From Cytobacillus gottheilii (GTDB lineage: Bacteria; Bacillota; Bacilli; Bacillales; Cytobacillaceae), in assembly GCF_001636345.1 (NCBI RefSeq), contig NZ_KV440945.1:2933354-2997353 (forward strand): a DNA stretch of 64,000 nucleotides. Reading direction: 5' to 3'. The stretch's first letter is position 1, and each line of letters opens with the position of its first letter. The notes beneath the pieces are model-generated. The model was given only the letters and a program-made list of their open reading frames with translations, made no database searches and was not told the origin of the DNA. The position numbers were made by a program, and so were the translations under genes. Below are positions 18,408 through 52,159 of this stretch, one piece after another.

Positions 18408-18956
18408 TTACCTTTTATAGATTGAAATCGATATCATTCCATAGTTTTCGTGCTTATATTGCACAAAGCTGCCAATCTGTTCCGGTAAATGAACATCCGA
18501 ACCATGCTCGCAAATGATCGTGCCATCTTCGGCAAGCAATGCTTCTCTATCAATCAGTTCAATCAGCTTGACCAGCTGCTGCTTCTTGTATGGCGGATCT
18601 AAGAATATATAATCAAATACAAGCTCTCTTTTTATAATTGCCTTTAAAGCTCTTTCAGCGTCATTGCGATAAACTTCACTTTGTTCTGTAAATCCGCTGG
18701 ATGAAAGATTATCATGAATGGTTTGTATTGCCATCCGGTCCCGGTCTACAAAAATAACTTTGTCCACACCTCTGCTGATTGCCTCAATCCCAAGTCCCCC
18801 GCTGCCGGCAAATAAATCAAGGCAAAGTCCTCCTTCAAAATATGGACCAATCATATTAAACAATGCTTCTTTCACTTTATCAGTTGTCGGCCGGGTTGTA
18901 TTCCCTGGGACAGGCTTTAAGCTTCTCCCTTTCTGCGAACCAGAAACAACTCTCAT
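18408..18956 (-). CDS. rsmD: 16S rRNA (guanine966-N2)-methyltransferase RsmD
   Basis: 182-residue SAM-dependent methyltransferase acting on assembled 30S particles. It begins MRVVSGSQKGRSL. TRPTTDKVKEALFNMI (about 21-36) is the substrate-side motif, LDLFAGSGGLGIEAISRG (about 45-62) binds SAM, and LDPPYKK (about 117-123) is the catalytic NPPY-type motif. Located 120 bases upstream of coaD and probably cotranscribed (ylbH-ylbI in B. subtilis). A GTGGTGAT site precedes the ATG. Confidence 0.95.
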   Translation of the reverse strand: MRVVSGSQKGRSLKPVPGNTTRPTTDKVKEALFNMIGPYFEGGLCLDLFAGSGGLGIEAISRGVDKVIFVDRDRMAIQTIHDNLSSSGFTEQSEVYRNDAERALKAIIKRELVFDYIFLDPPYKKQQLVKLIELIDREALLAEDGTIICEHGSDVHLPEQIGSFVQYKHENYGMISISIYKR

Positions 18957-19121
18957 ATCATCACCACTGCTACCATTATTGATTTTTTTTCTTCCCTATC
19001 CTACCATATTTGCCGATCGCAATCCAACCAATATTTTGAAATCGTTATCATTCCTCGTAGTTTCGTTATTATTTTTTATTCTGATGTGTATATTGAACTT
19101 TATTGTGGAAATACTGTTATT

Positions 19122-19271
19122 AACAGCATCTATTCGATGATGCTGTTGCCAACCGCGGAGAAGACTTACGTTTCCCCATAAGTTCTTCCTCCGGTTTCTC
19201 CTCTCCCTTTGCCTTCTATCCTTTAAGGATATAGAAGGACCCTGCAGAAGTCTGCAGGGTTTTCTTTTTAT
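19122..19271 (+). ncRNA. Candidate structured small RNA ending in an intrinsic terminator
   Basis: Four consecutive hairpins on the plus strand with no gene to serve. AACAGCATC/GATGCTGTT lies at 19122-19147, an imperfect CCGCGGAGAAGACTT/AAGTTCTTCCTCCGG at 19153-19194, and CCTTCTATCC/GGATATAGAAGG at 19212-19238. ACCCTGCAGA/TCTGCAGGGT at 19239-19260 is then followed by TTTCTTTTTATTTATT. The flanking genes are both on the minus strand. I see no good promoter (best is TTGAAC, 16 bases, TGTTAT, which overlaps hairpin 1). No match to a known family is claimed. Confidence 0.45.
19239..19271 (+). terminator. Orphan plus-strand intrinsic terminator
   Basis: Perfect 10-bp stem ACCCTGCAGA/TCTGCAGGGT with a two-base centre (AG), so the real loop is slightly larger, followed by a T-rich run. 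The T-tract is only on the plus strand, whereas the adjacent protein genes run on the minus strand. Confidence 0.8.
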
Positions 19272-19297
19272 TTATTGCACTATTAAAAATGAAATGA

Positions 19298-20716
19298 CTA
19301 CTGAGCAGCTTTGATTGATATTTCAGAAGCACTTTCATCTATTTGTATATTAAATATTGAATCTAACCACTGCTTCTCCATATAAATACTTCCGTACATA
19401 GCTGTTAATGGATTTTGCAATAAGCCATAATTATCTTCATTTAATATAAATATGTTTTTGTTTAAATAAAAACGATAGCTTTGTTCTTTATTTTGGATTA
19501 AAACGGTCTCTTGATCAGGTAAATATTGAACGTTGTATCCAAAATACTCCATCGTTTCCTTTAGTGGAAACAATCTTCTTGTTCCTTCATAGATGACTTT
19601 GTTATCTTTTTCTTCCCCATTGACGATTAATTTGCGGTCGTCATAATAAAATAACGGAATAAAATCATCACTCTTGCTATTGAGAGTATAGAAGCTTGTC
19701 CGAAAGCCCATTATTTTTGTTAATGCCTGATCAAGTTTTTCTGTTGTCAATGCATCCGGCTCATTATGAACAGATGAGAAAAAGAGATCGAGCTCATTTT
19801 CCGTCATTTTTTCATTCATTTCTGTTAAAACAGCTTTCCCTCTCGCTGTTTGTGCTTCTTTCCCCAGTGAATAAGCAATAAACACATCTGCAAGCCAGTT
19901 TTCTTTAAGCTCCAAGGAAGCAAATTTATGCTCAAAATAATGAGTTAACAGCTTAAGCTGCAAAGCCTCGTCAGTGATGCTCTTATTCACAATGATGAAG
20001 GAATCCTCCTCAAACTCCTTATGCTGATCTGTTACAACAATCGAATGCCGTTTAAAATCATTAAGTTCACTAATCACTTTAAAGGAAGATGGCTCAAAAA
20101 TTGAGGAATCAGCATAATAATTGAAGCCTGCTTTTGTTTCAAAGTAGTTCAAAGGTGCTGCCTGCCAATATAATGCAGTAGCATCCCCGCTTCCTGCAAA
20201 GGAAAAGAAATCAATATATTCTTTCTCAATGTGACCCTGCAGCGGTAAACCCGACATCCACGAACCTGCCCTGTTTACGGATTCAGTCACTTCCATTCTT
20301 GTTTCAGAAAGGACTATATCCGCTAGGCTGACAGTCCATTGATCTACTAATAAGGAACTGCCTCTTTTCCCAACCGGAATGGTATAAGAAAAATTTAATT
20401 CGCCATTCTCACTGGTATAAAAGTATGGCTGCTCTCCTTCAGCCTTACATGGATTTCCATCTGTATTTGTACATTGAAAATTAAACAGCTTTTGAGGGAC
20501 CACTGCTTCATATATCTCTCCCTCTGTTAATCCGCTGATGGTTTGTTGAACCGATAATTCATTGCCTTTCGTATACACTGATAATTCCTGTTTTATATTG
20601 GATGATTCAGAACTGTCTGGGTCTTTTTGTTCAGAGAATGCTTCCCATTGCCAGAAAAGCATACCGCTAATAGATGCCGACAGTATTAGAAATATCAATA
20701 GAAATGCTCTCCACAT
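19298..20716 (-). CDS. Secreted or membrane-anchored protein with a C-terminal stalk/copper-amine-oxidase-N-like domain
   Basis: 472 residues. An N-terminal hydrophobic segment (about 3-22) looks like a signal anchor. A large beta-rich extracellular region follows, with a CTNTDGNPC pair that could form a disulphide. The final about 110 residues (LIVNGEEKDNKV, RRLFPLKETMEYFGY, TVLIQNKEQSYRF) look like the stalk domain found in Bacillales surface proteins. No catalytic motif seen; function unknown. I use the second ATG, seven bases from AAAGGAG; the first overlaps that site. It sits between rsmD and ylbG, where B. subtilis has no gene. Confidence 0.7.
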   Translation of the reverse strand: MWRAFLLIFLILSASISGMLFWQWEAFSEQKDPDSSESSNIKQELSVYTKGNELSVQQTISGLTEGEIYEAVVPQKLFNFQCTNTDGNPCKAEGEQPYFYTSENGELNFSYTIPVGKRGSSLLVDQWTVSLADIVLSETRMEVTESVNRAGSWMSGLPLQGHIEKEYIDFFSFAGSGDATALYWQAAPLNYFETKAGFNYYADSSIFEPSSFKVISELNDFKRHSIVVTDQHKEFEEDSFIIVNKSITDEALQLKLLTHYFEHKFASLELKENWLADVFIAYSLGKEAQTARGKAVLTEMNEKMTENELDLFFSSVHNEPDALTTEKLDQALTKIMGFRTSFYTLNSKSDDFIPLFYYDDRKLIVNGEEKDNKVIYEGTRRLFPLKETMEYFGYNVQYLPDQETVLIQNKEQSYRFYLNKNIFILNEDNYGLLQNPLTAMYGSIYMEKQWLDSIFNIQIDESASEISIKAAQ

Positions 20717-20990
20717 CGTCATTCTCCTTTAAAAATTCATGCTGATTATCCTTGAAGCCTTTACATGACTCTGTCTAAAGAGTGCTATCACAACAATTTT
20801 CTACAAAAGATCCTTTTTATAAAGTGTATCAAAAACAGGGACATACGTCACAAGAAATTTATCGTTTTTTAAATAAATTAATCCGTTTGGCACAATCTGA
20901 TTTTTTAGGTAAACTTGTATAGGGAAAATTGATTATATACTTTAAAATAATAAAAGTGGAATACAACGAGAGAGTAATGGAGGAATAATC

Positions 20991-50290: not shown

Positions 50291-51766
50291 TTGTCTCAAA
50301 CTGAAACACCGTTATTTAGCGGCTTATTGGCACATGCAAAAAAGAATCCTGTACAATTCCATATTCCCGGTCATAAAAAAGGGACAGGAATTGACCCTGA
50401 ATTTAAAGAATTTATTGGAGAAAATGCATTATCTATTGATTTAATTAATATTGGACCTCTGGATGACCTGCACCAGCCTAAAGGCATGATCAAGCAGGCA
50501 CAAGACCTGGCAGCTGAAGCTTTTGGTGCTGAACATACATTTTTCTCAGTACAAGGAACCAGCGGAGCTATTATGACAATGGTTATGTCCGTCTGCGGCC
50601 CTGGCGATAAAATTATCGTACCCAGAAATGTTCATAAATCAGTTATGTCTGCCATTGTTTTTTCTGGTGCCACTCCTATTTTTATTCATCCCGAAATTGA
50701 TACTGAGTTAGGGATATCTCATGGTATTACAACAGATTCTGTAGCAAGAGCTCTTGAGCAGCACCCTGATGCAAAAGGATTACTTGTTATTAATCCAACG
50801 TATTTTGGTGTATCTGCAGACTTAAAAAAAATTGTTGAAATATCACATTCATATAATGTTCCTGTTCTTGTCGATGAAGCACATGGAGTTCATATTCATT
50901 TTCATGAAAGCCTGCCGATGTCTGCCATGCAGGCTGGAGCAGATTTAGCCGCAACAAGTGTTCACAAACTTGGCGGTTCCATGACACAGAGCTCTGTTTT
51001 AAATATGCAAGGTAATCTCGTTTCACATAAGCGCGTACAATCGATTTTAAGCATGCTAACTACCACATCAACTTCATATCTTCTTCTCGCTTCATTAGAC
51101 GTTGCCAGAAAAAGACTTGCAACGGAAGGACATGAACTAATTGAAAAAACAATTCAATTGGCACAGTCCATTCGAAAACGCATCAATGAACTCGATCACC
51201 TATATTGTGTAGGAGAAGAAGTATTAGAGACACATGCTGCTTATGATTACGATCCAACAAAGTTAATTATATCTGTAAAGGAACTGGGAATTAACGGCTT
51301 CGATGTTGAACTATGGCTGAGAGAGCGATATAACATCGAGGTTGAAATGTCTGACTTGTACAATATTTTATGTATTGTCACCCCAGGAGACACAGAGAAG
51401 GAAGCTGATATTCTAATCAATGCTTTAAGAGAGTTATCGATTGAATATCACGGAAAAGCTGAGAAGATTAATACGACTCAAGAGGTACTTTTGCCTCATA
51501 TTCCTGTCCTTGCTTTAACTCCGCGTGACGCTTTTTATGCGGATACAGAGCTTGTTCCATTTGATGAGTCTGAAGGCAGAATTATTGCTGAATTTATCAT
51601 GGTGTACCCTCCTGGCATTCCAATTTTTATACCTGGAGAAATCATCACGACCGATAACCTCCGTTATATTAAAACCAATATGGAAGCAGGATTGCCAGTT
51701 CAAGGGCCAGAGGATTATGACTTTAAATACTTGCGGGTTATTAAAGAACACCGGGCAATTCGATAA
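50291..51766 (+). CDS. speA: Arginine decarboxylase (Orn/Lys/Arg decarboxylase fold I)
   Basis: PLP-dependent decarboxylase giving agmatine for polyamine synthesis. 491 residues, near-identical architecture to B. subtilis SpeA. QFHIPGHKKGTG (about 22-33), DEAHGVHIHFHESLPMSAMQ (about 196-215) and ATSVHKLGGSMTQSS with the Schiff-base Lys about 226. The substrate follows the orthologue; lysine decarboxylases of the same fold are close. The start is TTG giving MSQTETP, ten bases after GAGGTG. SR1 lies head-on downstream. Confidence 0.93.
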   Translation: MSQTETPLFSGLLAHAKKNPVQFHIPGHKKGTGIDPEFKEFIGENALSIDLINIGPLDDLHQPKGMIKQAQDLAAEAFGAEHTFFSVQGTSGAIMTMVMSVCGPGDKIIVPRNVHKSVMSAIVFSGATPIFIHPEIDTELGISHGITTDSVARALEQHPDAKGLLVINPTYFGVSADLKKIVEISHSYNVPVLVDEAHGVHIHFHESLPMSAMQAGADLAATSVHKLGGSMTQSSVLNMQGNLVSHKRVQSILSMLTTTSTSYLLLASLDVARKRLATEGHELIEKTIQLAQSIRKRINELDHLYCVGEEVLETHAAYDYDPTKLIISVKELGINGFDVELWLRERYNIEVEMSDLYNILCIVTPGDTEKEADILINALRELSIEYHGKAEKINTTQEVLLPHIPVLALTPRDAFYADTELVPFDESEGRIIAEFIMVYPPGIPIFIPGEIITTDNLRYIKTNMEAGLPVQGPEDYDFKYLRVIKEHRAIR

Positions 51767-51858: not shown

Positions 51859-51949
51859 TACTTGCTAAAAAACTGGTCGTTTTCACCATCTATTTTCAAA
51901 CTAACTTCTTCACTGTAAAGCTTTTTGACTGCACCAGCCTTACGGTTTC

Positions 51950-52072
51950 TTACTTCTCCTGCTGATTAGGCGGGTCACATTGGCAGCTTCCTTTTGAATA
52001 TAATACAGTCACCTTTTCATCCTCGAAATGTTCGATAGTTGAATTACAAGTTTGGCATACGATTGTACCCAT
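51950..52072 (-). CDS. sr1P: SR1P peptide (GapA-binding), 40 aa
   Basis: A short gene reading MGTIVCQTCNSTIEHFEDEK, then VTVLYSKGSCQCDPP and a hydrophilic end. MGTIVCQxC, the IEHFEDEKVTVLY core and the C-terminal cysteine pair match SR1P of other Bacillaceae. In B. subtilis SR1P binds glyceraldehyde-3-phosphate dehydrogenase GapA, stabilises gapA mRNA and promotes a GapA-RNase J1 interaction. A GGGAGAG site lies about eight bases before the ATG. Confidence 0.88.
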   Translation of the reverse strand: MGTIVCQTCNSTIEHFEDEKVTVLYSKGSCQCDPPNQQEK

Positions 52073-52107
52073 CTGCTCATCTCTCCCTTAATATCATATT
52101 CATTTAT

Positions 52108-52121
52108 TGAAAGCGCTTTAT
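52108..52121 (-). promoter_or_regulatory. cre (CcpA) site at the SR1 transcription start
   Basis: TGAAAGCGCTTTAT matches TGWAANCGNTNWCA at 12 of 14 positions, with the AAAGCGCTTT palindromic core intact. It begins about three bases downstream of the predicted start, a position where bound CcpA would block transcription. Confidence 0.65.
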
Positions 52122-52130
52122 CTACTATCT

Positions 52131-52159
52131 ATAATAATATGACACTATTTAAAAATCAA
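52131..52159 (-). promoter_or_regulatory. Sigma-A promoter of SR1
   Basis: TTGATT (52159-52154), a 17-base spacer and TATTAT (52136-52131): four and five matches of six. Predicted start near 52124. Confidence 0.75.

Follow-up and report, generated by a model that had tools for sequence, protein, structure and literature searches.

A plus-strand small RNA gene divergent from rsmD in Cytobacillus gottheilii is almost certainly csfG, filed in Rfam on the opposite strand

The small RNA gene csfG was reportedly published by Marchais et al. in 2011, under a title that contains the words 'highly conserved in endospore formers'. According to excerpts of PMC3574147, csfG sits between ylbG and ylbH in Bacillus subtilis. 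In the northern blots described there, a probe for the ylbH-leader strand was silent and a strong signal came from the reverse strand; the authors equated the reverse-strand RNA with CsfG. The same excerpts report co-precipitation of CsfG with Hfq and a modest fall in its level when Hfq is missing. Excerpts of PMC9147052 place CsfG under sigF and sigG, in the forespore only, and state that disruption of sporulation small RNAs of the CsfG kind caused no obvious sporulation defect. CsfG is described as being without a known target in the available parts of PMC8216469 and PMC9147052, while PMC12456014, in a passing remark of its excerpt, has CsfG regulating mRNAs. On the basis of C-rich regions, which lie in predicted unpaired stretches, CsfG is classed with RoxS and FsrA (PMC4409812 and PMC8216469, in excerpt). 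RoxS/RsaE and FsrA answer nitric oxide or iron signals, whereas CsfG is under forespore control. A 2012 paper suggests, as an aside, a possible role in CsfG activity for YlbG, whose gene is nearby (PMC3814617, in excerpt). As far as the excerpts of the respective papers go, CsfG is included in an RNA-seq list of B. licheniformis (PMC3871023), the ylbH leader is annotated in B. methanolicus (PMC4342826), and the 'ylbH leader' was not detected in B. amyloliquefaciens (PMC4634765). The label S547 denotes CsfG in the excerpt of PMC8216469 but another RNA in that of PMC9147052. No clostridial study of CsfG was found among the open-licence PMC papers; the available part of PMC10267692 carries a citation only.

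The window analysed here is a stretch of 64,000 nucleotides from Cytobacillus gottheilii. The Rfam family RF00516, 'ylbH leader', matches it at 19153-19269 on the minus strand with 114.8 bits (gathering score 50). It is the only match of this family in the genome, and the core tract is also found in one copy. Rfam files RF00516 as a Cis-reg leader and models the opposite strand of the same DNA. The element is like B. subtilis CsfG in its place beside ylbH/rsmD, its strand, its sigF/sigG-type promoter and its CU-rich tracts. It is unlike B. subtilis CsfG only in the far-side neighbours, as a DUF7147 gene and a stalk-domain gene lie between ylbG and csfG here. A sequence-only reading had described this region as an orphan, unannotated small RNA in a gene order different from that of B. 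subtilis. The plus-strand small RNA stands, with a promoter and a terminator of its own, while the words orphan and unannotated have to be dropped in favour of csfG (RF00516), and the gene order differs only in the detail of the two intervening genes. The small RNA gene is real and conserved, but it is already known as CsfG. Its identity as csfG and its transcription from the plus strand are taken as almost certain. The best explanation of the whole arrangement, held with high confidence, is a plus-strand small RNA gene with a forespore-type promoter and its own terminator, divergent from rsmD. The features of the locus are collected in Table 1.

Table 1. Features of the csfG locus, in window positions
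Feature	Position	Strand	Basis or remark
rsmD (ylbH), divergent neighbour	18408..18956	-	PF03602, E 9.8e-61
rsmD sigA-type promoter TTGGAT-18-TAGGAT, extended -10 TATGG	18998..19027	-	read from sequence
-35 box GTATA, sigF/sigG-type forespore promoter	19088..19092	+	aligned columns
-10 box GGAAATACTG	19107..19116	+	spacer to GTATA 14
csfG small RNA	19121..19272	+	ends predicted from -10 box and terminator
5' hairpin	19121..19148	+	MFE; sequence variable, stem kept
Central hairpin, CU-rich loop CGUUUCCCCA	19151..19196	+	MFE, unpaired probability
Near-invariant core with three CU-rich tracts	19153..19207	+	aligned columns, 158 genomes
CU-rich tract 1	19169-19178	+	in central hairpin loop
CU-rich tract 3, UUUCUCCUCUCCC	19195..19207	+	mostly single-stranded
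Linker hairpin, variable	19212..19238	+	MFE
Intrinsic terminator and T-tract	19239..19272	+	stem 19239-19260, then TTTCTTTTTATT
Stalk-domain gene	19298-20722	-	other flank of csfG

The plus strand of 19100-19290 folds with an MFE of -59.8 kcal/mol (z -6.19), and none of 200 shuffles was as good. The four tandem hairpins that had been read from the letters were recovered at 19121-19260, and so were the plus-strand T-tract after the terminator stem and the minus-strand orientation of both flanking genes. The start proposed earlier, 19122, lies 6 nt past the -10 box. The minus strand of the same stretch folds equally well (MFE -64.2, z -5.99), so folding by itself gives no strand choice, and the choice was made from the T-tract, the promoter and the comparative data. 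The CU-rich conserved tracts expected of CsfG are present in the element. In the RNA of the window, the tract 1 loop and tract 3 have mean unpaired probabilities of 0.84 and 0.87, and tract 2, UCUUCCUCC, is mostly paired (0.18). C-rich unpaired stretches of the RoxS/FsrA type are therefore found in tracts 1 and 3 but not in tract 2. A coding sequence is ruled out, in line with the earlier reading that no protein frame explains the stretch. It is touched by two plus-strand frames of 20 aa or more, both starting upstream of the predicted transcription start, and the transcript fits no frame of that length.

To compare relatives, an alignment of 158 genomes with one locus each was used, composed of 110 of the 182 class matches and 48 further matches of the family (191 total); one duplicate locus of a genome had been removed. 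The relatives are not independent, so the counts given from this alignment are not probabilities. Shuffles in the promoter, rsmD-promoter and stem tests preserve base counts only. The five columns of the -35 box are conserved as G in 158, T in 153, A in 155, T in 158 and A in 156 genomes. In the -10 box, the corresponding counts are G 155 (19107), G 101 (19108), A 154 (19111), A 118 (19113) and T 152 (19115). The -10 box of the window agrees with the sigF consensus GGNNANAHTR. A regular expression for the forespore promoter matched 100/158 loci in the plus direction, 0/158 on the other strand and 0-1 in three shuffles. A looser pattern, also limited to the forespore type, matched 1/158 in the leader direction. 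Judged by this match and by its conservation, a putative sigF/sigG promoter is present on the strand that leads away from rsmD. Within the core, 48 of the 55 columns carry the base of the window in at least 95% of the genomes, and the pattern for tract 3 matches in all 158.

The strand was also judged from G.U pairs. The stem search makes no distinction between the strands and sets the pairs that would be G.U solely in a plus-strand RNA against those that would be G.U solely in a minus-strand RNA. The 5' hairpin gave 147 against 44, the linker hairpin 72 against 31 (144 of the 158 loci testable) and the terminator 243 against 40, which sums to 462 plus-only against 115 minus-only pairs. The best stem was better than its shuffle in 152/158 loci for the 5' hairpin and in 156/158 for the terminator. 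At least six T in the ten positions after the terminator stem were present in 110/158 loci, against 6/158 on the other strand. In the consensus fold, nine pairs common to the predictions of both strands showed 29 plus-only and 10 minus-only G.U pairs. The pairs predicted for the plus strand gave 147 against 24, and those predicted for the minus strand gave 38 against 692; the latter excess arises because a prediction picks the pairs that suit its own strand. Pairing-preserving changes, which had been proposed as a check on the element, were seen in the variable hairpins. In the central stem, the four pairs common to both predictions hardly vary across the 158 genomes, so no covariation support is claimed from them. 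The strand suggested by these relatives agrees with the northern blot of B. subtilis described in the excerpts of PMC3574147.

The relation of the element with rsmD is close. rsmD adjoins it in 156/158 class-level and 67/74 out-of-class loci, and it is both adjacent and divergent in the window and in 151 of the 158 class-level loci. rsmD appears to have its own promoter below the element. An extended -10 promoter was found there in 124/149 relatives (shuffle mean 4.95), and a -35/-10 pattern in 69/149 (shuffle mean 23.45). In 5/158 loci (L038, L039, L040, L097 and L124), which come from two genome families (f2 g28 and f16 g45), the cassette is inverted relative to rsmD. After the inversion csfG reads towards rsmD, and the supposed leader strand would be antisense to rsmD. 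The promoter expression matches 3/5 of these loci, the GTATA box alone is present in 2/5, and the T-rich tail is kept in 5/5. The rsmD promoter, the inverted cassettes and the strand test together suggest that the element does not belong to the rsmD transcript in the same direction.

The distribution of the element was compared with that of sigG. RF00516 was found in 191/193 genomes of the family and in 182/299 genomes of the class, 153 of the latter above the cut-off. For this comparison, sigG was divided into classes set here: none (E above 1e-60), intermediate (1e-97 to 1e-120) and strong (the rest). NCBI's own sigG cut-off was passed by 184/299 class and 159/199 phylum genomes. In the class sample, RF00516 matched 181/189 genomes with strong sigG, 0/18 with intermediate sigG and 1/92 without sigG, and the single match without sigG is weak and below the cut-off. 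Eight genomes with strong sigG have no match (G206, G268, G305, G312, G358, G366, G396 and G432). All 18 genomes with intermediate sigG and no csfG match belong to one family, f13 (e.g. G217, G250 and G264). This family may have lost csfG or may follow a sporulation programme that has diverged.

In the phylum sample, RF00516 matched 79/199 genomes, of which 6/79 passed the gathering score; this score excludes 73 of the 74 out-of-class matches. Among these 74, a 24-nt tract is exact in 53 and the 13-nt tract 3 is exact in 68, while 5 differ from tract 3 at two or three places. The remaining one, L372, was rejected as not being a true match, and the tract lies elsewhere in that genome. Of the 73 out-of-class loci left after L372 was excluded, 58 have a forespore-type promoter in front. 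The controls for this count, with shuffles that kept base counts, gave 0 matches for the opposite strand, 1 past the terminator and 1-2 in the shuffles. The 23-nt tract, allowing up to three mismatches, was found in 100/199 phylum genomes, although a reversed control pattern matches 6/199 and some of the three-mismatch matches look like chance. It occurs in 0/26 genomes without sigG and in 100/173 with sigG, strong or weak; the other 73/173 sigG genomes lack it at this threshold. Among the 80 named loci listed, the genera include at least Bacillus, Paenibacillus, Brevibacillus and Cohnella along with Thermoactinomycetaceae-type members, and the locus most similar to the window within these 80 is that of Cytobacillus gottheilii (L214). 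What sequence comparison by itself shows is the strand with its promoter and its terminator, a CU-rich core that is near-invariant, and an almost complete restriction to sigG genomes.

As for its function, CsfG may act in trans in the forespore. Its CU tracts that are unpaired, namely the UUUCCCC loop and UUUCUCCUCUCCC, would pair with the Shine-Dalgarno regions of mRNAs, and this pairing would block translation, as with small RNAs with C-rich regions such as RoxS. This is the most likely mechanism and is considered somewhat probable. Outside the class, the region upstream of the tract diverges. A GA-rich partner upstream, searched with a crude expression, is absent in 24 of 70 out-of-class loci (the motif-matched loci of the 73), and 23 of these 24 have tract 3 exact. 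As tract 3 is kept without its GA-rich partner, the tract itself looks selected. We infer that this selection reflects contact with another partner, the simplest candidate being the GA-rich ribosome sites of mRNAs. This was not borne out by the target tests below.

Targets were sought in 36 genus genomes. Sites complementary over 10 nt to the tract 3 end and placed before ATG gave 51 matches, only mildly more than the 35 of a reversed control; the same complement next to ATG is absent from the genome of the window. The genes after 30 of those loci, inspected by eye in translation, are mixed (alpha/beta-hydrolase-like, PaaC-like, a 45-47 aa protein and short frames), and several of the loci are followed by no frame, so no target is claimed. 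At two of them, L184 and L189, the 10-nt complement of the csfG tract end lies within the ribosome site of the 45-47 aa protein (MQKRKDV...). Sites of similar sequence occur in 5 of the 36 genus genomes, L184 and L189 being the two that were translated. From its ribosome site, this protein would be a weak lead as a CsfG target.

A broader reading is put forward tentatively and is regarded as possible but doubtful. CsfG would be an ancient, phylum-wide small RNA of endospore formers, with a constant anti-Shine-Dalgarno-like tract of 23-25 nt and the rest rebuilt. It would serve as a general translation brake on many forespore mRNAs instead of one or two targets, and Rfam would hide its extent through a model of the opposite strand and a cut-off placed near class Bacilli.

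A role of CsfG chiefly as a sponge for Hfq or some other RNA-binding protein, in place of pairing with mRNAs, is unlikely. The Hfq co-precipitation and the modest reduction without Hfq in the excerpts of PMC3574147 fit such a role, as do the lack of a known target and a 55-nt core conserved beyond the need of a short pairing seed. A binding platform needs less exactness, however, than is seen in tract 3, which is constant out of class while the upstream sequence changes, and Hfq appears dispensable for small RNA regulation in B. subtilis according to the excerpt of PMC12456014.

An action of CsfG on the ribosome site of sigG, which would control the switch to sigG, is rated quite improbable. 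The excerpts of PMC5942855 describe a hairpin over this site and leave control by a small RNA open, and csfG is itself under sigF and sigG. Across 20 genomes, the duplexes of tract 3 with sigG have a median energy of -12.0, and four control genes have weaker medians (stalk-domain gene -9.75, ylbG -9.7, DUF7147 gene -9.4 and rsmD -7.8). Against this, coaD, which is unconnected with sporulation, comes close (median -11.65), individual control sites go down to -16.5, and the five sigG leaders from outside the class pair more weakly, from -6.7 to -11.5. Compared with ordinary ribosome sites, the sigG leaders fall among the strongest in pairing with tract 3 and form no clear outlier. The weakest reading, a riboswitch-like minus-strand 5' leader of rsmD as the Rfam name says, has the Cis-reg label, the good minus-strand fold and the nearly constant rsmD neighbour on its side and is rejected as barely credible, given the G.U test, the inverted cassettes, the separate rsmD promoter, the near absence of a forespore-type promoter in the leader direction and the negative northern for that strand in the excerpts of PMC3574147.

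With the element read as csfG, the finding is settled as a known RNA. The strand and the 'cis-regulatory leader' label of RF00516 look wrong, and the comparative evidence argues that the Rfam family should be turned round and retitled. Judged from their sequences, csfG-like genes reach past the Rfam cut-off. What is added here, namely the comparative evidence on the strand, the inverted cassettes in two families and a core that extends across the phylum below the Rfam cut-off, may overlap with Marchais et al. (2011). A conserved RNA tied to sporulation without a reported target is a question that can be answered in B. subtilis.

Elsewhere in the window, the Rfam family of the SR1 small RNA (RF02376) matches 51910-52131 on the minus strand with 52.4 bits (gathering score 45). 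This locus holds a 40-aa frame at 51950-52072, which is presumably the SR1P peptide, and is adjoined by a gene at 50291-51766, which is taken here to be decarboxylase-like.
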